Assembly (NCBI GenBank): GCA_015234115.1
Contig: JADFWP010000012.1
Coordinates: forward strand, 1-63,333
Direction of reading: 5' to 3'
From: Magnetococcales bacterium
GTDB taxonomy: Bacteria > Pseudomonadota > Magnetococcia > Magnetococcales > Magnetaquicoccaceae
Length of the DNA: 63,333 nucleotides
The notes beneath the pieces are model-generated. The model worked only from the letters and a program-made list of their open reading frames with translations, had not been told where the DNA came from and did not search any database. The position numbers and the translations under genes are program-made. Within the stretch, counting starts at the first letter, position 1. Each line of letters begins with the position of its first letter. Shown here piece after piece: positions 8,821-54,360 of the stretch.

Positions 8821-9747
8821 CTACTGAAAAACATGCTCAATTTTCTCGGCACCCAGAATTCTCTTGCCCCAGGCTTTCAGGGTGGCAAGATCGGCCGAGG
8901 CCAGTCTGGACGGCACCCACTCCGGCACTGTCCCGAAATGGTCCTGGAGGAGATCAAGCAGTGCCTCGACTCTGCCTTCCAGTTTGCCTCTCTGTTCTCC
9001 GAGTTGGATCCCCTCCGCTCTGCCTTCCGCTCTGCCTTCCGCTTTCGCCAGTTCCACCATGCCGCGTGCATCGGCAATGGCAATACCAGCTTTTTCATAC
9101 AGTTCCAACTCATCAGCCGTCATGTTGGCGACCAGGGCCATCTCAAAGGCATGATGGAATGGAGCGGCCTGCAATTGAGGGGGAATTTCCTTTAAAGAAT
9201 CCGCGTATCGAATGAAATAAATCCAGCGATCAAGGATATCATTCAGTTGCTCCAACGATTTTTCAAATTTCGGGAGTTCAACAAAAATATGCAAGATATC
9301 CTGCAAGAAAGATTGCCCGGTCACGCTCTCCCGCATCTCGTGACGGGAAACACAATGCTCAAAACCGTCCCATACAGAAAAATCAACGATCGTCACCGCG
9401 ATCACCTGGTTCAGCCTTGGGTAATCCTCCCCGCGTTCGATCTGACTGGCATAGGCCTTTGCGGCATTGTACTGGATGCGTTTCAAAAAGGCCGAAACCT
9501 TTTGAACCTGCATCTCCACGATGTAGTTGATGCCGCGATGATCCCGACATTTGACATCCAGGATGGAATATTTCAAATCACGAATTTTCGGTGTCTGGAA
9601 CGGGTCCAGGAGGGTCAATTCGGCAATACGTCGATCCCCCTCCAGACCGAGCAGGCTCTCCAGGAAACTGATCAGAACATCCTTGGCATTTTCACTGCCA
9701 AAGATCTTCTTGAAGGCAAAATCGATTTTTGGATCAATGAATTTCAT
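8821..9747 (-). CDS. Rpn family PD-(D/E)XK nuclease / putative transposase
   Basis: Member of the family often annotated as recombination-promoting nuclease or PD-(D/E)XK nuclease family transposase. The N-terminus carries DPKIDFAFKKIFG. The nuclease core follows: ILDVKCRD (Asp64) and then YIVEMQ (Glu78, Gln80). The C-terminal part is charged and contains short repeats of AEGRAEG type, probably a coiled coil. GGGGA lies 8 nt before the ATG. Length 308 is normal. These genes are often strain-variable and multi-copy. It lies next to the secreted fibre-like gene block, and no inverted repeats mark it as an active transposon. Confidence 0.9.
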   Translation of the reverse strand: MKFIDPKIDFAFKKIFGSENAKDVLISFLESLLGLEGDRRIAELTLLDPFQTPKIRDLKYSILDVKCRDHRGINYIVEMQVQKVSAFLKRIQYNAAKAYASQIERGEDYPRLNQVIAVTIVDFSVWDGFEHCVSRHEMRESVTGQSFLQDILHIFVELPKFEKSLEQLNDILDRWIYFIRYADSLKEIPPQLQAAPFHHAFEMALVANMTADELELYEKAGIAIADARGMVELAKAEGRAEGRAEGIQLGEQRGKLEGRVEALLDLLQDHFGTVPEWVPSRLASADLATLKAWGKRILGAEKIEHVFQ

Positions 9748-9946
9748 GACATATTCCCCGCAGTTGACCAGGCAAGAGGGTCTGATGATTCATTGTCCTG
9801 TGACAAAGGGGGTGCCGTCAATCAAAATCAAGCGGAAGCGGAAAGGAGTGGACTTCCCGATACCGTGCAGGAATTCCGGGGCACCATACTCAATGCGGGA
9901 TGGTTTGGCATGGCGCGCCCGGAATTCGACAAGTGGCATGGTCGTA

Positions 9947-11173
9947 TTAATATGTTATTTTTCCATATGATATTTGCTGCACCGCAGGTGTTTGTTGCGC
10001 TTCTTCAAGCATGCCGACTTTTTTCTGGATCGAATCAATGCCTGCCAAGACTTCTTGTAATCTGACTGTTAATGACTGAATCTCTTTCCCCTGCTTCTGG
10101 ATGGTCTCGTCTTGTTCTTTAATGGTCTTCTGTTGATCTTGCACTACTTTGGTTACAACAGCAACGATATCCATCGAAGACAAGCCCTTCCGATCCTTGG
10201 TTGCAACCAAGTCAGGAACGTCCTCGGCAATGAAACCGACATGAGACCCGTCTGGTTCTTTCTTGTAAGTGAAAGTGACAGGATTCAATTGTCCCAGGGT
10301 TGACTGCGCTTTCTCAAGAGATAAAACGGTGATATTGTCTTTATATTCTCGGCTGGATGCATTGGTCCATATTCCTCCAGATGTGACATATGCACCGCTT
10401 GCCATATGAAGAGGATATGAAATTTGATCAACAGTTCGTCCAATACCAACATTACCATCTGCCGTTAATATTATTTTAGATCCTTGGCCGCCTTTTGTGG
10501 ATAGAGTCAGAAAATGGTTTGATTCGGTTCCTATTTGCATGGATTCATATAAGGAGCCACCTTGTCCAGGAAGGCTAATTCCTCCAATCACTCCGGCAGT
10601 ATTTGTTAGATATATTTGGTAGCTATTGTCTTTTGATAAAATATGAAGAGGTTTTTCTGGGATTGAAGTACCAATTCCAACATTGCCATTGGAGTGGATG
10701 CGCATCACTTCTCCACCAGACGTGCCATGTCGATGAAAAGTGATTGGTCTTGATTCTCCAACAGTGCCTCCACTATAGGAAAACAGACGTAACGAACCAT
10801 CAGGATATCTTGAAATTACTCCAGGCTCAACGGTGGCATTTGAATTCTCAAACACCAGATTATGTTCCGCTAAGTAACCTTGTGGGGGGGGACTATTGTC
10901 TGAAAAATTACTTACGGTCGTAAGAAGTCCTTGGCGTGATGTGGATACGCCTCCAATACTAATTCTTCCCGGAGAAAGTGCTGTATCCGTGTTGATTGCC
11001 GATCCAATTTTATTGATTTGTGTATACAATCCATCAAAATTCGCATTCACCTCCGATGCATTGATCACCCCACCAGAGACAAATGTGTTCGGTTTGGTAA
11101 TACTATCTGCGGATACTGAGCCAAAACATGCAATTATGGCTGTCAGTGTAATGATTTTCAAAGATCTCTTCAT
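9947..11173 (-). CDS. Secreted fibre-like protein with C-terminal S74 chaperone domain
   Basis: A 408-residue protein with a Sec-type signal peptide (LKIITLTAIIACFGSVSA, cut near residue 22). The middle region repeats 'GNVGIG' turns (HSNGNVGIG, TADGNVGIG) seen in phage tail fibres and endosialidases. Near residue 290, SREYKDNI and then VGFIAEDVPDLV match the peptidase S74 intramolecular chaperone domain, which trimerises fibres and cuts itself off. A C-terminal coiled coil (repeated KTIKEQDETIQKQGKE) follows. GAGGTGATAAC precedes the ATG. Upstream on the same strand lies the cadherin-like surface protein. Codon use is more AT-rich than in neighbours, suggesting transfer. The role is probably a surface or adhesive fibre; the ligand is unknown. 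Confidence 0.85.
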   Translation of the reverse strand: MKRSLKIITLTAIIACFGSVSADSITKPNTFVSGGVINASEVNANFDGLYTQINKIGSAINTDTALSPGRISIGGVSTSRQGLLTTVSNFSDNSPPPQGYLAEHNLVFENSNATVEPGVISRYPDGSLRLFSYSGGTVGESRPITFHRHGTSGGEVMRIHSNGNVGIGTSIPEKPLHILSKDNSYQIYLTNTAGVIGGISLPGQGGSLYESMQIGTESNHFLTLSTKGGQGSKIILTADGNVGIGRTVDQISYPLHMASGAYVTSGGIWTNASSREYKDNITVLSLEKAQSTLGQLNPVTFTYKKEPDGSHVGFIAEDVPDLVATKDRKGLSSMDIVAVVTKVVQDQQKTIKEQDETIQKQGKEIQSLTVRLQEVLAGIDSIQKKVGMLEEAQQTPAVQQISYGKITY

Positions 11174-11272
11174 GTTATCACCTCATGCAATGGATAGAGT
11201 TGGTATCTCAATGTATTGACTGATTCTGGCACCACCTTGTTGCCAGGGCTAACAAACAGCACTGTTCTGCCA

Positions 11273-14104
11273 TCACCCCCAATGATCTGTATTCCAGATT
11301 GCACGATTCCAGACACCACCTCTACCAGCATCATCGTCTATGATGGTAGCCATTCCTCTGTTTCTGGCAATGACTGCACCAGAAACCGAGTGCAAGTGGA
11401 GATAAAAGGATTCGTTGCCTTCATTCTGCAAATCACCGAGAACTGTCACAGAGACAGACTTGCTGGTTTCTCCAGGATCGAAAGTAAGCGTTCCACTGGT
11501 AAAGAGATAATCTGAACCCATGGTCGCGGTGCCGTCGCCTGTATTGTATTGCACTGAAACGGTTTGGCTGCTGGCGCTGTCAAGTGTAACCGTAAAGGTG
11601 ACATTGGTCGAACCGGAATTTCCCTCAGTGACGGTCACATCGTCGATGGTTAGATTTGGGATCACGTTAATCAGATTGAAATTGAAGACGCTTTCTGCTG
11701 TCCCGCCATGGTTGTCGCTGGCCGTAACCTTGACCTGAAGTGTTGAAGTGCCGACAGGAGGAGTGCCAGTAAAAGTCCGGGTGGATGCGGAAAAGGAGAG
11801 CCACGCGGGTAGAGCTGACCCATTGACCAATGCTGCCGAGTAGGTCAGGCTGTCTCCTTCCGTATCGGTGAATGTGTTGGCCGGAACTTGAAATGATTGA
11901 CTCCCGCTTCCTGTCCAGGTCTGATTTGCAATGGGCGTGGTGACTGTTGGTGGATCGTTGGGTGTGTTAATGGTCAACGTAAAGGAGGCTCTGACCGATC
12001 CGCCGTTGCCGTCATTGGCTGTGACCTTCAGATTGAGTGTCGAGGCACCAGCAGGAGGATTGCCTGAAAAAGTACGGCTATTCGCGGCAAACGTCAGCCA
12101 TGCAGGCAAAGCCGAGCCATCGGCAAGCGAGGCTGAATACGTCAGGCTGTCTCCTTCCGCATCGGTGAATGTGTTGGCCAGAACCTGAAAAGACCGACTC
12201 CCGCTTCCAGTCCAGGTCTGATTTGCAATGGGCGTAGTGACTGTTGGTGGATCGTTGGGTATGTTGATGGTCAACATAAAGGAGGCACTGACCGATCCGC
12301 CGTTGCCGTCATTGGCTGTGACCTTCAGATTGAGTGTCGAGGCACCAGCAGGAGGATTGCCTGAAAAAGTACGGCTATTCGCGGCAAACGTCAGCCATGC
12401 AGGCAAAGCCGAGCCATCGGCAAGCGCGGCCGAATAAGTCAGGCTGTCTCCTTCCGCATCGGTGAATGTGTTGGCCGGAACCTGAAAAGATCGACTCCCG
12501 CTTCCTGTCCAGGTCTGATTTGCGATGGGCGTGGTGACTGTTGGTGGATCGTTGGGTGCGTTGATGGTCAACGTAAAGGAGGCACTGACCGATCCGCCGT
12601 TGCCGTCATTGGCTATGACCTTCAGATTGAGTGTCGAGGCACCGGCAGGAGGATTACCTGAAAACGTTCGGGTGCCGGGTGCAAAAATCAACCATGCTGG
12701 CAGTTGAGAACCATTTGCGAGCGTAGCGGTATAGGTAAGGGCGTCTCGGTCTCCATCTGCGAACGTGTTGGCCGGAACCTGAAAGCTCTTGACTCCGCTG
12801 CCACTCCAGGTCTGATTGGCAAGCGGCGTAGCCACGGTTGGTCCATCGCTGGTGGCGGTAAAGGAGAGGGTAAAGTTAGCGATGCCGCTTCCACCCTTGC
12901 CATCGCTGGCCGTGACCCGCAGATCCAGCGGTGCAATTCCGGCTGGAGGATTACCGGAAAAGGTCTGGGTGGTCGCATTGAAACTCAACCATGCGGGAAG
13001 AGCAGATCCATCGGCCAAGGTGGCGCTGTAACGCAAGCTCTCCCCGTCCCCATCAGTAAAGGTATTGGCCGGAACCTGAAAATTCTTGCTTCCGCTTCCA
13101 TTCCAGGTCTGATTGCCAATGGGGGTGACGACGGTCGGCGGATCGTTGGTTTGACGGAAGGCGAGTGTGAAGGTGGAAGAAATCGTGCCGCCATTGCCAT
13201 CGCTGGCAAAGACCTTGAGGGATTTGGCCGTGGCACCCGCTGGAGGATTGCCCGTAAAGCTCCGGGTAGCCGGATCGAAGGTCAACCAACCGGGCAAAGC
13301 TGAGCCGTCATTCAATCGGGCCGTATAGGCCAACGTATCCCCATCCCGATCAGAAAACGTGTTTTCCGGAATCTGGAAACTCTTGGCACCACTGCCACTC
13401 CAGGTTTGATCGACGATGGGGGTACGGAGCGTGGGCGGATCGTTGGTGTTGCCACTGAATGAGAGAGTAAAAGTATGGCTCCCCGTGCCGCCATGCCCAT
13501 CGTCAGCCGTAATTTTCAAACCCAGTGCAATGGCTTCCGCAGGGGGATTGCCGGAAAAGGTCCGGGTTCTGGGTGTGAAGGTAAGCCATGACGGCAGGGC
13601 GGAATCATCATCCTGGGTGGCGGTGTAGATCAGCGTATCCGCGTCCCCATCCAGGAAGGTATCGGCCGGAACTACGAAACTTTTAATTCCGCTGCCACTC
13701 CAGATCTGATTTCTGATATTGTTTATGACCTGTGGGGAATCATTGGTTTCGGTCAAATTCAGCGTGAACGGACTGGAAGCCGTGTTGCCATGACCATCAT
13801 TGGCGATCACCTTGAGACCGATTTTGAGAATGCCGGTCGGTGGATTCCCGATGAACGTGCGGGTACTTCTAATGAAGCGCAGCCAGGATGGCAAGGCCGA
13901 GCCATTGGCCCGTCTGGCCGAATAGGTCAGAGTGTCCCCATCGTTATCGCGGAACGTATTGGCTGGCATCTGAAAGCTTTTGCTCCCACTTCCGGTCCAG
14001 GTCTGATCGGGAATAGCATTGACCACCCGAGGTGCAGCAGACCATGCATCGGAACAGGTCGTTACAATAAGAATAAAGAGAATGATCTTATAAAATTCAG
14101 GCAT
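11273..14104 (-). CDS. Secreted cadherin-like (CADG/Ig-like) repeat protein with Calx-beta domain
   Basis: A 943-residue exported protein with signal peptide ILFILIVTTCSDAWSAA. Eight tandem units of about 98-99 residues each hold an NQTWxGSGxKSF start, NTFxDxDGDxLTY, LPxWLxF, TRTFxGNPPAG and LKVxANDGxGG. This is the dystroglycan-type cadherin-like fold with potential calcium-binding DxDxD and DxNDxPP-like sites. A Calx-beta domain follows from about residue 825 (VTVTEGNSGS, GDGTATxGSDY, ending IIDDD). The last residues (WNRAIWNTDHWG) match no sorting signal I know. CAGGAGC precedes the ATG. It is probably a cell-surface or extracellular adhesin or matrix protein, though the partner is unknown. 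Units 6-8 are almost identical at DNA level. Confidence 0.88.
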   Translation of the reverse strand: MPEFYKIILFILIVTTCSDAWSAAPRVVNAIPDQTWTGSGSKSFQMPANTFRDNDGDTLTYSARRANGSALPSWLRFIRSTRTFIGNPPTGILKIGLKVIANDGHGNTASSPFTLNLTETNDSPQVINNIRNQIWSGSGIKSFVVPADTFLDGDADTLIYTATQDDDSALPSWLTFTPRTRTFSGNPPAEAIALGLKITADDGHGGTGSHTFTLSFSGNTNDPPTLRTPIVDQTWSGSGAKSFQIPENTFSDRDGDTLAYTARLNDGSALPGWLTFDPATRSFTGNPPAGATAKSLKVFASDGNGGTISSTFTLAFRQTNDPPTVVTPIGNQTWNGSGSKNFQVPANTFTDGDGESLRYSATLADGSALPAWLSFNATTQTFSGNPPAGIAPLDLRVTASDGKGGSGIANFTLSFTATSDGPTVATPLANQTWSGSGVKSFQVPANTFADGDRDALTYTATLANGSQLPAWLIFAPGTRTFSGNPPAGASTLNLKVIANDGNGGSVSASFTLTINAPNDPPTVTTPIANQTWTGSGSRSFQVPANTFTDAEGDSLTYSAALADGSALPAWLTFAANSRTFSGNPPAGASTLNLKVTANDGNGGSVSASFMLTINIPNDPPTVTTPIANQTWTGSGSRSFQVLANTFTDAEGDSLTYSASLADGSALPAWLTFAANSRTFSGNPPAGASTLNLKVTANDGNGGSVRASFTLTINTPNDPPTVTTPIANQTWTGSGSQSFQVPANTFTDTEGDSLTYSAALVNGSALPAWLSFSASTRTFTGTPPVGTSTLQVKVTASDNHGGTAESVFNFNLINVIPNLTIDDVTVTEGNSGSTNVTFTVTLDSASSQTVSVQYNTGDGTATMGSDYLFTSGTLTFDPGETSKSVSVTVLGDLQNEGNESFYLHLHSVSGAVIARNRGMATIIDDDAGRGGVWNRAIWNTDHWG
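11931..12660 (-). repeat. Near-identical 297-bp tandem repeats inside the cadherin-like gene
   Basis: The phrase GACTGTTGGTGGATCGTTGG recurs at about 11941, 12238 and 12535, exactly 297 bp apart. The intervening sequence is almost unchanged (99 codons per unit). This marks recent duplication or gene conversion of cadherin-like units 6, 7 and 8. Units 1-5 are clearly more diverged. Such an array can vary in copy number and is prone to assembly collapse. Confidence 0.9.
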
Positions 14105-29894: not shown

Positions 29895-30605
29895 TCAGAG
29901 GGCTGTGACTTTTTGAATCAATGCAGCAAAATGAGGACATTTTTTGCCGATTCTGTCAATATTTTTTACCGCACGCTTGGCAAATTCTTTATAGCGAATT
30001 GATGTTTTTCTTGAGATACCGGTTGCCTCTTCCGGGAAAGGTCGCTTTTTATCTTGGCAATCCCATCTCAACAACGTCAAGTCCGGATTCTTGTCAGCTT
30101 CCGGTGTTGTCTCCTGAGTCAGTCCGGCGACCAGCCAACTTTCCACGGATTCCACCGCTGGCGCGATGATGGTCCACTGAAGATCATCACGATCCACACC
30201 AGCAGGCCATAACCAATCGGTCAAAACAGCCTCAACATATTGTCCCCTCCCCACAGGACCAGAAAGATCATAACAATACCGATCCACATTTGTATTATCT
30301 GATATTCTTTCACAAACATCGGAATCCAGATGAATCAATAACGCGTCATAAGATGAAGAAGTAGAAAAAAGTCCTCCCCCAACAATCATTTGCCGACGCA
30401 ATTCCGGATGATTATTCATACACCATTTATACACCAGTTCCCAACCGCCCTTCTGACCACCTCCTGAACTCGTCCTGTCTGAGCGTGGCTGCAAGCTGTC
30501 AAACTCATACGATATTACTTTTAGCGAGGCTGCTGGCAACAAGATTCTCAACACCTCTTGATCGGTTGGACCTTCAGTCACCATGCCAATGCGTTTGAAA
30601 GTCAT
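29895..30605 (-). CDS. TOPRIM-like protein (DUF4276 type), partner of AAA ATPase
   Basis: A 236-residue protein with a TOPRIM-like signature: GMVTEGPTDQEVL (Glu11), then ALLIHLDSDVCE (Asp94, Asp96). AVESVESWLVAG near residue 151 matches the Glu-x-x-Glu-x-Trp element of DUF4276 proteins. TOPRIM folds catalyse metal-dependent strand cleavage, so nuclease activity is likely but inferred. Its ATG overlaps the stop of the ATPase gene by 4 bp (ATGA), giving a tight two-gene unit. Base composition is more AT-rich than the flanking purine and atp genes. Such ATPase plus TOPRIM pairs resemble anti-phage systems such as PARIS (AriA/AriB), whose TOPRIM partner belongs to another family (DUF4435). Confidence 0.78.
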   Translation of the reverse strand: MTFKRIGMVTEGPTDQEVLRILLPAASLKVISYEFDSLQPRSDRTSSGGGQKGGWELVYKWCMNNHPELRRQMIVGGGLFSTSSSYDALLIHLDSDVCERISDNTNVDRYCYDLSGPVGRGQYVEAVLTDWLWPAGVDRDDLQWTIIAPAVESVESWLVAGLTQETTPEADKNPDLTLLRWDCQDKKRPFPEEATGISRKTSIRYKEFAKRAVKNIDRIGKKCPHFAALIQKVTAL

Positions 30606-31858
30606 AGTTGCGACGGCCCCAAAGCATCAGGAATCAGACCATTGATCCAGAGTTCGGACAAATTTTTACCTTGCTTGATTCGAATCCACTCTTCTCTTGT
30701 CATGCCCGGCCTGGGCTGTAAACGATCAATTTTGGTAAAACCAGTCTCCGGCTCACGACTGACCACGAAGATGCGTTGCTCCTCGTCAAACAGGTCAAAT
30801 GCATCCAGGGAGGTGGGATTATGACTGGTCAGAAAGACCTGATGGGGACCAATACCATGCTTCTGGAATGCTTCCCCGCACATCACGGTAATCAACTTCT
30901 CCAGAAACGCCCGTGTCGCCGATGGATTCAAGGCGTTATCCACATTATCGAGGGCAAAAATTTTTGGTGCCTCCTGATGTAAAATCACGATCGCCAAAAA
31001 CAATAAATAGAGAGAACCTTCGCTGCTGTCATAAGCAGATAGGGTATCTCTCCCGCGTTTCATAAAACGATCTTTAAAGAAAAGAGTTTTGTTTCCGGTT
31101 TTTACCTGCGAGGAAACCTGATCTGGAGATGACTCTCTAACCGCTAAAGAACTAGCCCATCCCGGCATCCACACCAGATCAAGTATTTCTTTAATTAATG
31201 ATGAAGTTTTTTGTGATTTTATAAGCTGATTAAAAACAACCAATGCTGCTTGTGGCAAGCCACCACCAAGCAATCCAATTGGCTTCACTGGCGTGGATTC
31301 AATTTCCACCCCACGCAGAAAAGAGGGCTGAGGTGCATAGATGCAATATCTTGCCAACACATCGAGTTGTAATGATAACTCCTCTGGAGTATCAATCACC
31401 CCATGATATTGATCCCACAAACCACGCTCAGGCGACAACTCTATCTTTTTGTCAATCCCACGCAACCGAATTCCACGATTGCTGCGCCCCAGATAACTCA
31501 AATTCTTATACCGAATCTCTTCACTAAAAAAACGTAATGTTTGAAATTGTTCGCCAGATGCAATGCGAACATTATATTGAACATCACCGTCCATTTCAGC
31601 ATCAAACCCAAAATTACTTTTCAATTCTCGATTTCTGAAAGCCGATTTAAACAAAGTCGGTACCGAAAGTCGCACCCCCTTGCGTTGCAATTCCACTTCG
31701 GTGATATCACGACTCAAGGCCGCACTCAAAACCCCAATAGACTCCAAAATGTTGGATTTTCCAGATCCATTCGCACCAATGAACAGGTTGACCCGTCCAA
31801 ATTCGAGTCTCGCATCGGTAATCGTCTTGAAGCCATTGATGGAAAGTTTCCTTAACAC
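30602..31858 (-). CDS. AAA ATPase (AAA_21/OLD-like, SMC-type)
   Basis: A 418-residue ABC/SMC-like ATPase. N-terminal ISINGFKTI-type strand (LSINGFKTI), Walker A GANGSGKS at residues 28-35, a signature-like AYDSSEGSLYLLFLA near 275-289, and Walker B IFALDNVDNALNP near 300-312. A switch His follows in FLTSHNP (near 346). The residue after the Walker B Asp is Asn, where the usual catalytic Glu is expected. The start is GTG. It lies immediately upstream of the TOPRIM-like gene with an ATGA overlap. The pair is bounded by tsaC and by an R1/R2 repeat cluster. Function is inferred as a nucleic-acid sensing ATPase of a defence module. Confidence 0.85.
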   Translation of the reverse strand: MLRKLSINGFKTITDARLEFGRVNLFIGANGSGKSNILESIGVLSAALSRDITEVELQRKGVRLSVPTLFKSAFRNRELKSNFGFDAEMDGDVQYNVRIASGEQFQTLRFFSEEIRYKNLSYLGRSNRGIRLRGIDKKIELSPERGLWDQYHGVIDTPEELSLQLDVLARYCIYAPQPSFLRGVEIESTPVKPIGLLGGGLPQAALVVFNQLIKSQKTSSLIKEILDLVWMPGWASSLAVRESSPDQVSSQVKTGNKTLFFKDRFMKRGRDTLSAYDSSEGSLYLLFLAIVILHQEAPKIFALDNVDNALNPSATRAFLEKLITVMCGEAFQKHGIGPHQVFLTSHNPTSLDAFDLFDEEQRIFVVSREPETGFTKIDRLQPRPGMTREEWIRIKQGKNLSELWINGLIPDALGPSQL

Positions 31859-32013
31859 GTTCTTTTTTCCATTTAACCCAAGGAGCGAAAGAGATCTGTC
31901 CCGTACTCAATCAAACAGGCCATTGTCTATCCAGATTACCCGATAATGCTCGAATAATCCATGCGGATCTGTTTCACCAGAAACCGAATAACGAATCCAT
32001 GCATCAAACATTA

Positions 32014-48596: not shown

Positions 48597-48905
48597 GGCA
48601 TTCACCCCATTTCCACAACAAATTGTCCCGATTCACACAAAGTGCGTGACTTCCGTTTGTATCCTGACGTAGAATATACCGGTTCGATGATCCTTTGCCA
48701 CCGGATCCTGACAAATTTACATTCATAAACTCTCAAAAAACACCCCACGGCACTCATCGAAACCTGGACGCGAATCCCCACTGCCGCATCAGGGAAAAGA
48801 ACAAGATCTCCGCATTTTTTTCTTGCATCCAGATTTAAAGTGAGTCAAAAATGCAAGCTGACCGGAATGGTTGACAGCAGTGTCGATCACAAGCGTTTCA
48901 GATCT

Positions 48906-48960
48906 GTCACGACACCAAAGGCCGATTGCCCGCACCCCGCTCTTTGGTGTTTGTCGTGAC
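48906..48960. repeat. Imperfect inverted repeat (hairpin with 4-nt bulge)
   Basis: Left arm GTCACGACACCAAAG pairs with right arm CTTTGGTGTTTGTCGTGAC with four extra bases in the right arm. Spacer is 21 bp. No T-run follows, so it is not a typical terminator. It could be a regulatory or recombination site. Confidence 0.6.
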
Positions 48961-49067
48961 CGACCGGAATGGGCTGCACGCCCGAATCCAAACCAATGCG
49001 GTAAGACAGTCATGGAAATGAGGTAAAAACCGACTGAACTCCAGGCCCATGCGCATGGTGAATCTGC

Positions 49068-49096
49068 TTGACTCTGATATTGGCATATGCTATTCA
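49068..49096 (+). promoter_or_regulatory. Candidate sigma70 promoter for the octad-repeat gene
   Basis: TTGACT (-35), 17-bp spacer, TATTCA (-10). This would give a 5' leader of about 140 nt before the RBS at 49227-49231. It rests only on sequence match and position. Confidence 0.35.
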
Positions 49097-49241
49097 TTGA
49101 TGGATTCAGGCCGTGAAATCCTGAAATGTCTATATTTTTTTTGAACGGCCCATAAAACTTTCTGTTGCGCCTGATCGCGGCATGGTGCTTACAGATCTTA
49201 AGTCAATTGCCGCAAGACACTACAAGAGGAGCAAGAAGCGA

Positions 49242-52200
49242 ATGCCTACAGCAACTGAGCTACAAGCGATGACCACGACCGAGATTGCAGCCCTGACTAC
49301 GACCGCCGTCAAAGGTCTGACCAGCACGGCAGTGGGTCTGCTCACCACCACCCAGTTTTCAGTCTTGTCATCCACCCAGATCGGCGTGATGACCTCCACT
49401 CAAATTCGTAGCGTGTCCGTCGATGCCATGGGCACCATCACCACGGATCAACTCGACGGCCTCACGCGGACCCGGTTGGGTAATTTGACCACCACACAGG
49501 TCGCCGCGATTTCGGCTGACGGTGTGGAAAGCCTCTCCACCACCCAGATGGCCGGTCTGAAATCCTCCCATCTGGCCAATATGACCGATACCCAGATCGA
49601 AGCCTTGAGCGCCGATCAGGTCGGCAGCCTGACCACCACCCAGGCGGATGGACTGGGCGAAGACCAGATCGGTCTGCTGGATGCGGATCAGATCGCGGGC
49701 CTCACCTCCACCGTGCTGCGCTCCCTGAACACGACCCAGGTCGGCGGCATGAACACCACCGCCATCGGCGCCCTGAATGCCACCCAGATCGGCGGCATGC
49801 GTGCCAGCCACCTGGGTGCCCTGAATGCGACCCAGTTGCAAAGCCTCTCCACCTCTGGCGTGGCGGCCCTGAATACCACCCAGATCGGCGGCCTGTCCAG
49901 CACCCAGGTGGGCAACCTGTCCGCCAATCAGTTCTCGGCCATGAGTTCCACCCAGATTGGCCAGATGAGCGTCACCCAGCTGCGCGGCCTGCCCACGGAT
50001 CGTCTCTCCGGCATGTCCACGACGCAACTGGCTGGTCTCTCCTCGACCCAGTTGGGCCGGATGACCACCACCCAGATCGGCGCGTTGGGCGTGGATAATC
50101 TCTCCACGATGCAGATTGTCGGCATGCGTTCCACGCAGGTGGCCGCTCTCTCCACCACCCAGATCGGCGCCATGGGCACCTCCCTGGTGGCCGCTCTCTC
50201 CTCGACCCAGGCCCAGGGACTCAGCGCGACCCAGATCGGGGTGATGAGCACGACCCAGATCGCCAACATGACCACCAACCAGTTGGGCGCCCTCTCCAAG
50301 ACCCAGCTGACCGCCATGAGCACCACGGCCATCGCCACGCTGGGCACCGCCCAGATGGATGGCCTGAATGCCACGCAGATGGGCTTCCTGACCTCCACGC
50401 AGGTCGGCGTCCTGAACAGTGACATCCTCGGCTCCCTGGAAGCGACCCAGTTGGGTGGCATGTCCAGAACCGGCATGGCCGCCATGTCCACCACGCAATT
50501 CGCTGCGCTCAATTCGACCCAGATCGGTGGCATCTCCCTCTCCCAGATCGGTGGCCTGCCGACCACGATCGTGGCCAGCATGAACACGACGCAGCTGGGT
50601 GGCCTCACCTCCACCGTGATGAGCCGTCTGAACAGCTCCCAGCTGGGCGTGATGTCCACCACGGCCATGGGTGCCCTCTCCACCGTCCAGGTCGCGGGTC
50701 TGAGATCCAGACAGATGATGGAAATGCCTTCGGCCCTCATCGGCGCCATGAGCACCACGCAAATGGGTGTGCTCACCGCGACCCAGGCCGGCGGTCTGAC
50801 CGCAACCCAGATCGGTTCGATGAGTTCGACGCAGGTCGGCAATCTGGGCACCAACATCCTGGGCGCCCTCAATTCGACCCAACTGGGCGGCATGAACACC
50901 ACGGCCATCGCGGTCCTGAGTTCGACCCAGCTGAGCGGTCTGAAATCCACCCAGATCGGCTTCATGAGCACGACCCAGATCGCCAGTATGAGCACCACCG
51001 GCTTGGCCAATCTGAGCACGACCCAACTGGGCGGCCTGAACGCCACGTTGATGAACGGTCTCTCCGCCACCCAGTTCTCGTCCTTGAACGCCACGCAGGT
51101 GGTTGGACTGAATCCGGACGTGATGGGCGGTATCGCCAACCTCGTGGGCGGAATGAGCACGACCCAACTGGGCCAACTCAGCACATCCCAAATGGCCAGC
51201 CTCTCCACCACGGCCGTGTCTGCCATGAGCACCACCCAGCTGAATCTGCTCACCGATTCCCAGTTTGGTGGACTGACCGGCACCATGATGGGTGCGTTGA
51301 CGACCACGCAGTTCTTTGGTCTGACCACGACCCACATCGGCGCGATGAATGCGTCGCAAATGGGTGGCCTGACCACCACAACGGTCAGCGCCCTGAGCAC
51401 GACCAATGTTGCCTCTCTCTCCTCGCTGCAGGTGGGTGGCTTGACGCTTGCCCAGTTCGGCGCCTTGACCACGACGAACCTGAACTCCCTCACCACCACG
51501 CAGATCGCGGGCATCAGCACCACGCAAATCTCGGGACTCTCCGCAGGACAGGCAGGCGGTCTGACCACCACCGAGATCGGCTATCTGTCGCAGGCCCAGG
51601 TTGGTGGATTGACCACCACGGCAATCACCAATATGTCCACGACGCAGGTGGGCAACCTGACCACGACCCAGTTGAACGGCTTGACCAGCACGGCTGTCGG
51701 GGCATTGACCACCACAAAATTCAATGACCTGGGCACGACCAAGATTGCCGCTCTCGGTGCGACCCAAATCAGTGGTCTCTCTGCGACCGTCCTGGCAGAT
51801 ACAGATTTCCTGAGCACCACCACCCAGAATGTACTTACCGCAACCAGCATCTCTGGTTTCACCCCGACCCAGCTCGGCCTCCTCACCACCACGTTCGTTG
51901 CGGCACTCACCACGACGCAGATCACGGGTCTGAATACCACGCAGGTGGCTTCACTGAGCACGACCAACATCCTGCTCATGACCACCACCAACATCGCGTC
52001 CCTGACATCCACCCAGTTCAGCGGATTGGTCACGACCCAGGTCAGAGGTCTGTCCACGACCCAGATCGTGAATCTGACCTCCGCGCAGGTCGGTGTTCTC
52101 AATACGACCCAGGTCGGCAGCGTGACAACCACCCATCTCACCTCAATCACCACGACTCAGGTGGCGGGTTTGAGTGCGACCCAGGTGGGTGCTCTGACCA

Positions 52201-53768
52201 CCACCCAGGTCAGAAGCCTGAACACGACCGCTCTGGCTTCGCTCAATGTCACCCAAATCGGTGGTCTGACCACCACTGAAATCGCTGCCGTGACGAGCAC
52301 CCAGGTCGCAACCATGAGTGCTGTCCAGATCGCTGGCTTGACCACGACGCAGATCGCCAGTGTGATCTCGACGGGCATCAGCGTCATGTCCACGACCCAG
52401 GTGGCCGCCATCTCCACGGCCCAGGTGGCTGTCCTGTCCTCGGCCCAGGTCGGTGCGCTCACGACGACCAATGTGTCGTCTCTCACCGTCGCCCAACTGG
52501 GTATTCTGTCCACCACCCAGGTGGCCGGAATGAGCACCACGCAGGTGTCTTCTCTGTCCACGACCCAGATCGGCACGTTCACGTCGAATCAAATCGGTGC
52601 CGTCCCGGCCGCAGGATTCGGTGTGCTGTCCACAACCCAGGTGACCGCCATCTCCACGACCCATCTGTCTGGCATCAGTTCCAGCCAGGTTGGCTATGTG
52701 ACCACCACGGCCATGGGGATTCTCACCACCACCCAGACGGGTGTTTTGACTTCAACCCAGATCGCCGGTATGGGCAGCAATCAGATTGCTGCGCTTACCA
52801 CGACCCTGCTCACCTCACTGACCTCGGTCCAGCTCGGTTCAGCGGTCACGACAGGAATCGGTCTGCTCTCCACGACCCAGGTGGCCTCCCTTACCACGAC
52901 TCATCTGTCTGGCATGTCCGCCGGCCAGGTCGGCGCGGTATCCACCACGGCTGTATCGACTCTCACCACCACCCAGGTGGCGGTACTGAGTTCGACCCAG
53001 GTTGCAGGAATGATTGCAGCCCAGGTCACCGTCATGACCACCACGCAAATCGTTGGTTTGACCACTGGGCAATTGTCCGGACTGGAATCCACGGATGCTG
53101 CCGGTCTCACCACAACCCAGGTGGCCGCACTTTCGACCTTGCAATTGGGTGCCTTCACCGGTTCAGCCGTGGGTGGCATGACCACCACAGCCCTGAACGC
53201 TCTGAGCACGACACAGATGGTCAACTTGTCCACCGGACAAGTGGCTGGACTCAATGTCACTCAGGTGAGTGCCATGACCACCACGTTGTTGTCCACTCTC
53301 TCTGCTGACCAGATGGGTGCGATTGAGTCCACCGATGCTTCGGGCATCACCACGACTCAGATCAACATCCTGACCACAACCCAAGTTGCTGCATTGACCT
53401 CCAGTGCCGTGGCTTCCTTGAGTGTGACGGATCTGCAATACCTGACCGTCACCCAATTCGGCGCACTCAACTCGTCGGATATCAAGGCCCTGTCTGCCGT
53501 CCAGATCGGTTCGTTGACCACGACCCAGGTGGCGGCTCTCACTTCCACCCAGGCAAGCGGCATCGACATCCTCGATATGCCGTCTCTGACCACGACCCAA
53601 ATGTCGGTCTTGACCGTCACAGCGGTGAGCGGCTTCAGCTCCACGCAGGTCAAAGGCCAGCCGTTTGGTATCGGTACTGCCACAGTCGGTGGCTTGACCA
53701 CCACGCAGGTCATGGCAATTTCGAGCGGCGACGCAGCACAGTATGTCATCGCGCTGGGCCAATCCTGA
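49242..53768 (+). CDS. Giant octapeptide (TTQ) repeat protein, unknown function
   Basis: About 1508 residues, almost entirely a tandem 8-residue repeat with consensus [GA]-[LM]-[ST]-[ST]-T-Q-[IVLMF]-[GA], roughly 180 copies (24-bp DNA period). The register is broken only a few times, for example around ADTDFLSTTTQNV. Position 2 is Leu/Met and position 7 Ile/Val/Leu, so two hydrophobic ladders run along the array, with Thr/Ser and Gln between. No Cys, few charges. There is no Sec signal peptide, and no recognised sorting domain at the end (GQPFGIG..., then GDAAQYVIALGQS). ATG 49242 is preferred because AGGAG lies 10 nt upstream; ATG 49182 extends it 20 residues. Three hairpins follow the gene. 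Function unknown; a rigid filament, surface layer or scaffold protein is possible. Confidence 0.9.
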   Translation: MPTATELQAMTTTEIAALTTTAVKGLTSTAVGLLTTTQFSVLSSTQIGVMTSTQIRSVSVDAMGTITTDQLDGLTRTRLGNLTTTQVAAISADGVESLSTTQMAGLKSSHLANMTDTQIEALSADQVGSLTTTQADGLGEDQIGLLDADQIAGLTSTVLRSLNTTQVGGMNTTAIGALNATQIGGMRASHLGALNATQLQSLSTSGVAALNTTQIGGLSSTQVGNLSANQFSAMSSTQIGQMSVTQLRGLPTDRLSGMSTTQLAGLSSTQLGRMTTTQIGALGVDNLSTMQIVGMRSTQVAALSTTQIGAMGTSLVAALSSTQAQGLSATQIGVMSTTQIANMTTNQLGALSKTQLTAMSTTAIATLGTAQMDGLNATQMGFLTSTQVGVLNSDILGSLEATQLGGMSRTGMAAMSTTQFAALNSTQIGGISLSQIGGLPTTIVASMNTTQLGGLTSTVMSRLNSSQLGVMSTTAMGALSTVQVAGLRSRQMMEMPSALIGAMSTTQMGVLTATQAGGLTATQIGSMSSTQVGNLGTNILGALNSTQLGGMNTTAIAVLSSTQLSGLKSTQIGFMSTTQIASMSTTGLANLSTTQLGGLNATLMNGLSATQFSSLNATQVVGLNPDVMGGIANLVGGMSTTQLGQLSTSQMASLSTTAVSAMSTTQLNLLTDSQFGGLTGTMMGALTTTQFFGLTTTHIGAMNASQMGGLTTTTVSALSTTNVASLSSLQVGGLTLAQFGALTTTNLNSLTTTQIAGISTTQISGLSAGQAGGLTTTEIGYLSQAQVGGLTTTAITNMSTTQVGNLTTTQLNGLTSTAVGALTTTKFNDLGTTKIAALGATQISGLSATVLADTDFLSTTTQNVLTATSISGFTPTQLGLLTTTFVAALTTTQITGLNTTQVASLSTTNILLMTTTNIASLTSTQFSGLVTTQVRGLSTTQIVNLTSAQVGVLNTTQVGSVTTTHLTSITTTQVAGLSATQVGALTTTQVRSLNTTALASLNVTQIGGLTTTEIAAVTSTQVATMSAVQIAGLTTTQIASVISTGISVMSTTQVAAISTAQVAVLSSAQVGALTTTNVSSLTVAQLGILSTTQVAGMSTTQVSSLSTTQIGTFTSNQIGAVPAAGFGVLSTTQVTAISTTHLSGISSSQVGYVTTTAMGILTTTQTGVLTSTQIAGMGSNQIAALTTTLLTSLTSVQLGSAVTTGIGLLSTTQVASLTTTHLSGMSAGQVGAVSTTAVSTLTTTQVAVLSSTQVAGMIAAQVTVMTTTQIVGLTTGQLSGLESTDAAGLTTTQVAALSTLQLGAFTGSAVGGMTTTALNALSTTQMVNLSTGQVAGLNVTQVSAMTTTLLSTLSADQMGAIESTDASGITTTQINILTTTQVAALTSSAVASLSVTDLQYLTVTQFGALNSSDIKALSAVQIGSLTTTQVAALTSTQASGIDILDMPSLTTTQMSVLTVTAVSGFSSTQVKGQPFGIGTATVGGLTTTQVMAISSGDAAQYVIALGQS

Positions 53769-53838: not shown

Positions 53839-53882
53839 AAAAAAAGGTGGCTGGTGAATTCATTCCCCAGCCACCTTTTTTT
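53839..53882. terminator. Intrinsic terminator after octad-repeat gene
   Basis: 16-bp stem AAAAAAAGGTGGCTGG with CCAGCCACCTTTTTTT, loop TGAATTCATTCC. The layout is that of a short R2 hairpin with different stem letters. The T7 run makes it a good terminator. Confidence 0.85.
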
Positions 53883-53959: not shown

Positions 53960-54000
53960 AAGAAAGGGGCCTGGAGATTCAATCCCCAGGCCCCTTTCTT
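53960..54000. terminator. Third hairpin, R2-like stem
   Basis: 15-bp stem AAGAAAGGGGCCTGG with CCAGGCCCCTTTCTT, loop AGATTCAATCC. The loop resembles the R2 GGGGATTC core. It stands in a gene-free stretch from 53769 to 54386, which otherwise holds only repeats. Confidence 0.7.
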
Positions 54001-54043
54001 GGTGACAACTGATCAAACCACCCCATCTCAAGAGGCACACTTC

Positions 54044-54360
54044 TGAAAAAAAGAGAGGGCCTGGGGGATTCCTCCCTCAGAGTTTTGACTTTAAACAGAA
54101 ACCTTTTTAGAGATTTTTTGTTTAAACCGCGACCATTTCGGGATCATGAGTTTTTGGCCAAAAGGCGTCGCCTGCGGCGACCAGGGGGGGCGCCTGCGGC
54201 AAAGCGCGCCAAAAGCAAGTCCCAAGGGCTTCGCCCCTGGACCCCACCAGGGGCCAATGGCCCCTGGACCCCACTGACAAACGACGTCTCCCGTGATGGG
54301 TGCGGTTTAAAGGCAAAACCCTGGGGGAGGAATCCCCAGACCCCTTCTTTGTCTTTCAAT
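54044..54360. repeat. R2 long repeat interrupted by an R1 element
   Basis: Left R2 arm and centre 54044-54126, right R2 arm 54306-54360 ending TTTCAAT. An R1 element (54125-54307) separates them. The left flank AAGAGGCACACTTCT matches, inverted, the right flank of the R2 copy at 21987. It ends 26 bp before the acetyltransferase stop. Confidence 0.88.
54125..54307 (+). repeat. R1 interspersed repeat, copy c, full length inside R2
   Basis: Begins AACCGCGACCATTTCGGG, ends GATGGGTGCGGTT. The ends form an imperfect terminal inverted repeat (AACCGCGACCAT against the complement AACCGCACCCAT). Direct hexamers TTTAAA flank it at 54121-54126 and 54306-54311, as a target-site duplication would. Internal GGGGCCAATGGCCCC and GGGCTTCGCCC hairpins are present. 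Confidence 0.88.

Follow-up and report, generated by a model that had tools for sequence, protein, structure and literature searches.

What is encoded by a gene that consists almost entirely of one eight-residue unit, and what might its product do? This question is raised by an open reading frame (ORF) at positions 49242 to 53768 (+ strand) of contig JADFWP010000012.1 from a Magnetococcales bacterium (assembly GCA_015234115.1); the window referred to below is the whole stretch of 63,333 nucleotides that was analysed. The original prediction, made from the letters of the DNA, described a giant protein of TTQ-type octapeptides that belongs to no described family. We found that the protein is real, yet not unclassified, as profile matching assigns it to a known Pfam family, PF20080 (ALTTAQ_rpt). 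Its predicted fold and the recurring gene neighbourhood of its relatives are the solid gains of our analysis, whereas O-glycosylation and export of the protein constitute a hypothesis that we regard as about evenly balanced.

The longest frame spans 49182-53768 (+; 1,528 aa). A start at 49242, giving 1,508 aa, appears the better choice, because the same-genus relatives begin there (N-termini MATSTMIQML, MPITSTQMQAI, and MAATSTIIQML, at the second ATG of the window frame) and because a Shine-Dalgarno-like AGGAG lies 10 bases 5' of this ATG. Identity of the protein to itself at a lag of eight residues was 0.312 (1,528-aa version), versus 0.110 ± 0.008 (maximum 0.134) in 200 shuffles, confirming the period that had been claimed. 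Unit parsing placed 1,472 of the 1,508 residues in 184 octads, with five breaks in the register (i.e., 5, 7, 3, 8, and 4 residues) and the consensus [LM]-[TSN]-[TSA]-T-Q-[VILMF]-[GAS]-[GAS], in which position 2 is T/S/N in 159 octads, position 5 is Q in 118, and position 6 is V/I/L/M/F in 174. The array comprises 181 distinct octads at the peptide level, and at the DNA level all 184 differ; recent DNA amplification was thus rejected as the origin of the array, and the view that selection acts on the protein rather than on the DNA was upheld, as the residue pattern is kept throughout. The composition contains no Cys and direct reading of the sequence, without a signal-peptide program, revealed no N-terminal hydrophobic stretch, in agreement with the earlier description of a Cys-free protein lacking a Sec signal.

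Pfam matched PF20080 to 56 stretches of the protein (E 5.9e-170; 551.1 bits versus a curated cut-off of 26.4). We found no difference between the window protein and other family members, and the search output names no family function; likewise, literature searches on PF20080/ALTTAQ yielded no account of one, and NCBIfam gave no match up to E 10. All 33 PF20080 matches in the own genome fall in this ORF (the assembly being 77% complete). In a class sample of 48 genomes (presumably Magnetococcia; one order, 14 families), PF20080 was present in 16 of the 18 genomes of the window's family, the own genome included, and in 0 of the 30 from other families. In the phylum sample it was found in 17/397 genomes, including five from other classes, and 57 of 72,556 plasmid records match a PF20080-type repeat. 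A search of genome contigs using the window protein as query identified no relative.

Several other assignments were considered and rejected. Up to E 10, Pfam lists just PF20080, CAAP1, and two models under their cut-offs, with no RTX match; the CAAP1 match (2e-6; 28.6 bits, above a cut-off of 25) spans 42 residues and was interpreted as low-complexity similarity. Among the records examined, PF20080 proteins are labelled "hypothetical," "ICE nucleation," or "heme utilization." The ice nucleation label, carried by a relative in Cereibacter, was judged against the ice-nucleation repeat model, which is a beta-solenoid; no such Pfam match appeared up to E 10 and the structural model described below is all helix. 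"Heme utilization or adhesion" large exoproteins carry a two-partner secretion domain, for which there was no Pfam match up to E 10. Leucine-rich repeats have a strand in each unit; LRR_EndoS scored 17.8 bits (cut-off 27.9), our model has no strands, and weak phmmer matches to leucine-rich repeat proteins (best 9.5e-6, to a plant kinase) were taken to reflect common leucine spacing. A Spiroplasma match, at 19% identity, was left out of the comparisons.

To model the fold, AlphaFold2 was given a 160-residue stretch (51810-52289, +) in an alignment that also included six further stretches from the window protein; one alignment that had lost the octad register was left out. In the resulting model (predicted local distance difference test [pLDDT] 90.9, predicted template modelling score 0.83), the stretch forms 20 short helices, with each octad corresponding to one helix of 5-6 residues. 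After the first, irregular unit, helices begin at octad position 3, making position 2 the N-cap, and the Gln of the octad is the third helix residue. Octad helices continue in a second model, of the C-terminal 204 residues (53154-53765, +), in which the last ~45 residues have low confidence (block means 53-71). The original prediction had offered short helices or a beta-solenoid as options and had called for an AlphaFold run; with 20 repeats modelled, the helix option is supported, and a beta-solenoid is not, as both models lack strands. The predicted fold is hence one very short helix per octad, stacked into a long screw-like rod. No solved structure matched the model at E <= 0.001 in Foldseek; the top match was the mesothelin superhelix 8cx3 (E 1.5e-3, TM 0.48), with which we do not claim homology at 12% identity. 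By sequence profile alone, the protein matched the solved chain 9zem, "HeliScrew4" (E 1.9e-18; 120 aa), which was outside the 50 Foldseek matches listed for the model. Both have a register of eight residues, with hydrophobic residues at positions 1 and 6 and mostly S/T at position 2, but positions 3 and 4 of 9zem are mostly Pro and Glu/Asp, respectively, where the window protein has Thr-Thr. The name HeliScrew4 suggests a designed protein; literature searches on HeliScrew, octapeptide repeats, and helical repeats returned nothing relevant.

We then turned to gene neighbourhoods. PF20080 is present in eight of the ten further genomes of the genus that we searched, and in six (G009, G011, G012, G013, G014, and G017) the order is the same: a glycosyltransferase of family GT41 with tetratricopeptide repeats (TPRs), an ABC exporter, HlyD, and the ALTTAQ gene, with ~5 kb between GT41 and ABC in G013. 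In G016, the GT41 listed lies on a different contig from the repeat gene, and in G008 no partner gene was found within the first 20 kb of the repeat contig. The latter carries three successive ALTTAQ frames (L061:1-11072, −; 1,950, 1,335, and 403 aa, with stops between), which represent a split gene or a sequence error. The own genome has GT41, ABC, and HlyD side by side on contig C11 (L097), outside the window and without the repeat gene, at 69-81% DNA identity to the blocks of the relatives.

The GT41 proteins of the relatives and of C11 combine TPRs with a Glyco_transf_41 domain bearing the active-site stretches of OGT. More specifically, the C11 protein (1,304 aa) aligns to the 110-kDa OGT subunit (7yeh) through FNQxYKI, LDT...HTT, and S-x-D-F-x-N-H stretches, which presumably hold the catalytic residues. 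The C11 ABC protein is 84% identical to that of G011; among solved structures, its first match is HlyB, over the full length, and it has a weak Peptidase_C39 domain. At the presumed position of the catalytic Cys of this domain, 8/8 aligned ABC sequences have Ser or Thr. A C39-type domain without its catalytic Cys accords with an exporter that leaves the leader uncleaved. The own genome has four ABC exporters that match the G011 exporter over nearly all of its length (contigs C11, C80, C78, and C95). In the sister genus, GT41 lies within ~5 kb of a repeat frame in at least 2 of 7 genomes (G001:C1 and G004:C92), as a giant chain. Giant multi-GT41 chains of that genus were seen at L222:5254-16596 (−; 3,781 aa) and L223:161-7681 (−; 2,506 aa); the 3,781-aa chain (G004) has eight GT41 stretches forming four modules, and many TPRs.

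Beyond these genera, we used two tblastn probes to look for GT41 near the repeat. From the 57 matching plasmid records, 16 were fetched by rank and genus spread, i.e., not at random, and 15 were counted (a Polaromonas locus, L221, had no ORF above our density filter). GT41 was present in the fetched stretch at 9/15 loci (Niveispirillum, Cereibacter, Rhizobium CCGE532, Rhodovastum, Pseudomonas DTU, Pseudoroseomonas, R. daejeonense, P. asturiensis, and Pseudorhizobium); five of these enzymes are Pfam-confirmed, two are annotated as GT41, and two rest on tblastn alone. ABC and HlyD genes were found at the Niveispirillum, Cereibacter, Pseudoroseomonas, and both Pseudomonas loci (5/15), and plasmid pA of the laboratory strain Cereibacter sphaeroides 2.4.1 carries the repeat gene, GT41, ABC exporter, and HlyD together. 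GT41 was also near the repeat gene in three of five distant genomes outside the class (G314, G335, and G410), accompanied by ABC and HlyD in G335; a second repeat locus of G314 has no GT41 nearby. In 11 control stretches (20 kb each, shorter than most plasmid loci), GT41 or HlyD was found in 0/11 and partial ABC ATPase matches in 5/11. A scan with the ABC alignment was dominated by the general ABC motif; among the best 80 loci listed, one from Methylorubrum salsuginis (L112) was the sole locus with ALTTAQ and GT41, and none had just one of them. The loci with GT41 near the repeat come from Alphaproteobacteria, two Pseudomonas plasmids, and the window's class.

GT41 linkage was accompanied by a difference at octad position 3, the first helix residue. 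In loci outside the family, the Ser/Thr fraction at this position was 0.77 when GT41 was linked (n = 13, including L112, found through its ABC, and a 385-residue piece from G335) versus 0.44 when it was not (n = 8; p 0.004, or 0.005 without L112), with no difference at positions 2 and 4. A first comparison of all loci, in which ORFs of one genome were counted apart and loci without an ORF above the density filter were left out (sister-genus L073 of G001:C1 and distant L192/L193 of G187), gave 0.787 (23 ORFs) versus 0.582 (18 ORFs; p 0.0007), and no link of GT41 to position 4, total Ser/Thr, or charge. Pro at position 3 is commoner in unlinked arrays (0.01-0.23 versus 0-0.07), and unlinked sister-genus ORFs are intermediate in Ser/Thr (0.53-0.68). 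The window gene has 0.73, and the six linked same-genus relatives 0.73-0.90.

The window gene itself sits after PEBP and flhB genes. Three relatives (L101, L102, and L103; 20 kb each) keep the PEBP/flhB region and lack the repeat gene there; on C11, a sulfatase-domain gene follows HlyD at the slot where the repeat gene would be. Just upstream, a block reaching a few bases into the gene (49085-49248, +) resembles the DNA that precedes the repeat gene in 4 of the 6 linked same-genus relatives (L057, L058, L059, and L060; 73-81% over 74-154 bases), and a second short block (48817-48853, +) weakly resembles DNA upstream in L057 and L058 (84-86%; E 0.004 and 0.001). Because the C11 slot is empty, the relatives' region is without the gene, and the upstream block is kept, the repeat gene appears to have moved out of its block in the own genome. 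A dispersed palindromic element (54025-54130, +; matched at 70 places in the own genome, counting itself) lies after the window gene and also at the empty C11 slot (L097:6967-7114), and similar pieces occur in other loci of the genus. Misassembly at dispersed repeats is a possible alternative to a gene move; the left flank (48601-49260), used as a query, did not match a dispersed repeat, which counts somewhat against it.

These comparisons do not support the "independent, highly controlled unit" of the original prediction, as six relatives have the gene together with those for the OGT-type enzyme, the exporter, and HlyD, from which the copy in the window seems to have been displaced. The "own promoter and triple terminator" held in part. 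Four promoter-like sites were found 0.5-0.6 kb upstream (0.9 expected; two on the + strand), and two palindromes follow the stop codon: 53839-53882 (+), with an A run before and a T run after, a likely terminator, and 53960-54000 (+), a possible one, both seen by direct reading and not reported by the hairpin scan. The third hairpin (54061-54080), reported by the scan, sits inside the dispersed element, which is not a gene-specific terminator. Elsewhere in the window, GC drops to ~45-46% at 9001-12000 and 30001-32000 (mostly 55-65% otherwise), and 11330-11662 (−), within a 943-aa ORF (11273-14104), is similar, at 34% over 117 aa, to a Calx-beta protein encoded next to the ALTTAQ gene of Cereibacter.

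Since the repeat gene of relatives often adjoins GT41 and an exporter, a sugar-decorated surface fibre is suggested. Our best reading, to which we give an even chance, is that of a giant PF20080 rod that receives O-linked sugars in the cytosol and is then exported through a type I system, modification and export being deduced from gene neighbourhoods. In this scheme, each octad would form a helix with Ser/Thr/Asn at position 2 as N-cap and hydrophobic residues at positions 1 and 6, and the helices would stack into the rod; the protein would be made in the cytosol, where the TPR-GT41 enzyme would O-glycosylate exposed octad Ser/Thr, position 3 foremost, before an HlyB/HlyD-type system exports the glycosylated rod in one step, leaving a sugar-coated fibre on the cell surface or outside the cell. 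In the own genome, the C11 enzyme and exporter would act in trans. We infer both the role as surface coat or adhesin and the modified site. A more specific form, in which the OGT-type enzyme places a sugar on nearly every turn, on the residue that opens each mini-helix, in the cytosol, and an exporter seemingly without the C39 Cys delivers the rod, is put forward tentatively.

A number of observations weigh against glycosylation and export. The window gene adjoins neither GT41 nor exporter (the six relatives do encode the protein beside ABC and HlyD, as would be usual for a type I substrate), and no type I signal was identified in the repeat protein. GT41 is missing from 6/15 plasmid loci (Pararhizobium, Shinella, Sinorhizobium, Thioclava, Allorhizobium, and UR115; the "glycosyltransferase" near the Shinella repeat gene gave no Pfam match), from two of the five distant genomes (G187 and G355, at E <= 1e-15), and from the other sister-genus stretches fetched beside repeat genes (some partial; G007 left out). 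Type I secretion genes (ABC and HlyD) are near the repeat at just 5/15 plasmid loci and in 1/5 distant genomes, and the genome-level association of GT41 with ALTTAQ outside the class is not significant (3/5 versus 85/361; p 0.09). The position-3 test was exploratory, made after several features had been viewed, with statistics that ignore kinship; within Rhizobiaceae p was 0.15, and there are exceptions in unlinked Pararhizobium (0.80) and same-genus G008 (0.84-0.90) and in linked G314 (0.36). Moreover, Thr at helix starts may serve capping alone.

Loci without GT41 are also what one would see if the rod were an unmodified scaffold or adhesin, exported by a type I system or otherwise brought to the surface, with GT41 reflecting surface-glycan islands and acting on another target. 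Sugar genes are indeed often nearby (dTDP-rhamnose at L056; UDP-galactopyranose mutase at L085 and L219), and hexapeptide acyltransferase, PMT_2, and epimerase genes lie near the window gene. We nonetheless judge this account rather unlikely, given that Ser/Thr is more frequent at position 3 of GT41-linked arrays and that GT41 lies near the repeat in lineages as separate as Alphaproteobacteria, the two Pseudomonas plasmids, and the window's class. An unexported cytoplasmic scaffold or docking rod would fit a protein in which neither Sec signal nor anchor is seen, the window copy with its own upstream region and no partner next to it, and the repeat loci without secretion genes; HlyB/HlyD-type genes adjoining the repeat gene in six same-genus genomes, and their presence at the Cereibacter, Niveispirillum, Pseudoroseomonas, and two Pseudomonas loci, make it improbable. 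Finally, the gene might be a relic that persists without function in this lineage after leaving its block. The displacement, the five register breaks, and a position-3 value at the low end of the linked same-genus range accord with decay, but 1,508 codons without a stop, octads that all differ in DNA with the residue pattern kept, and the conserved upstream block leave this explanation very little room.

For the glycosylated, exported rod that we favour, two known systems bear on the order of events, and one of their enzymes, HMW1C, itself belongs to GT41. In both, a soluble enzyme modifies an exported protein. FlmG of Caulobacter is described as an O-glycosyltransferase of the cytoplasm that can act on flagellin before its export (PMC7591256), and HMW1C of the HMW1A/B/C system modifies a secreted adhesin (PMC3012730, PMC3983070, PMC2877744). 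They differ from the window family, with its TPR-GT41 and type I exporter, in that HMW1C forms N-links on a two-partner-secreted adhesin, whereas FlmG acts on flagellins with pseudaminic acid. By analogy, cytosolic glycosylation before export is possible in principle, and we do not claim that the systems are the same. Literature searches on OGT with type I secretion gave nothing relevant, and none of our searches turned up a paper that connects PF20080 to GT41 or to type I secretion. If the linkage holds, it would provide a fold, an enzyme, and an exporter for the poorly described PF20080 repeat family, as well as a genetically simple setting for the action of a bacterial OGT on regularly arrayed acceptor sites.

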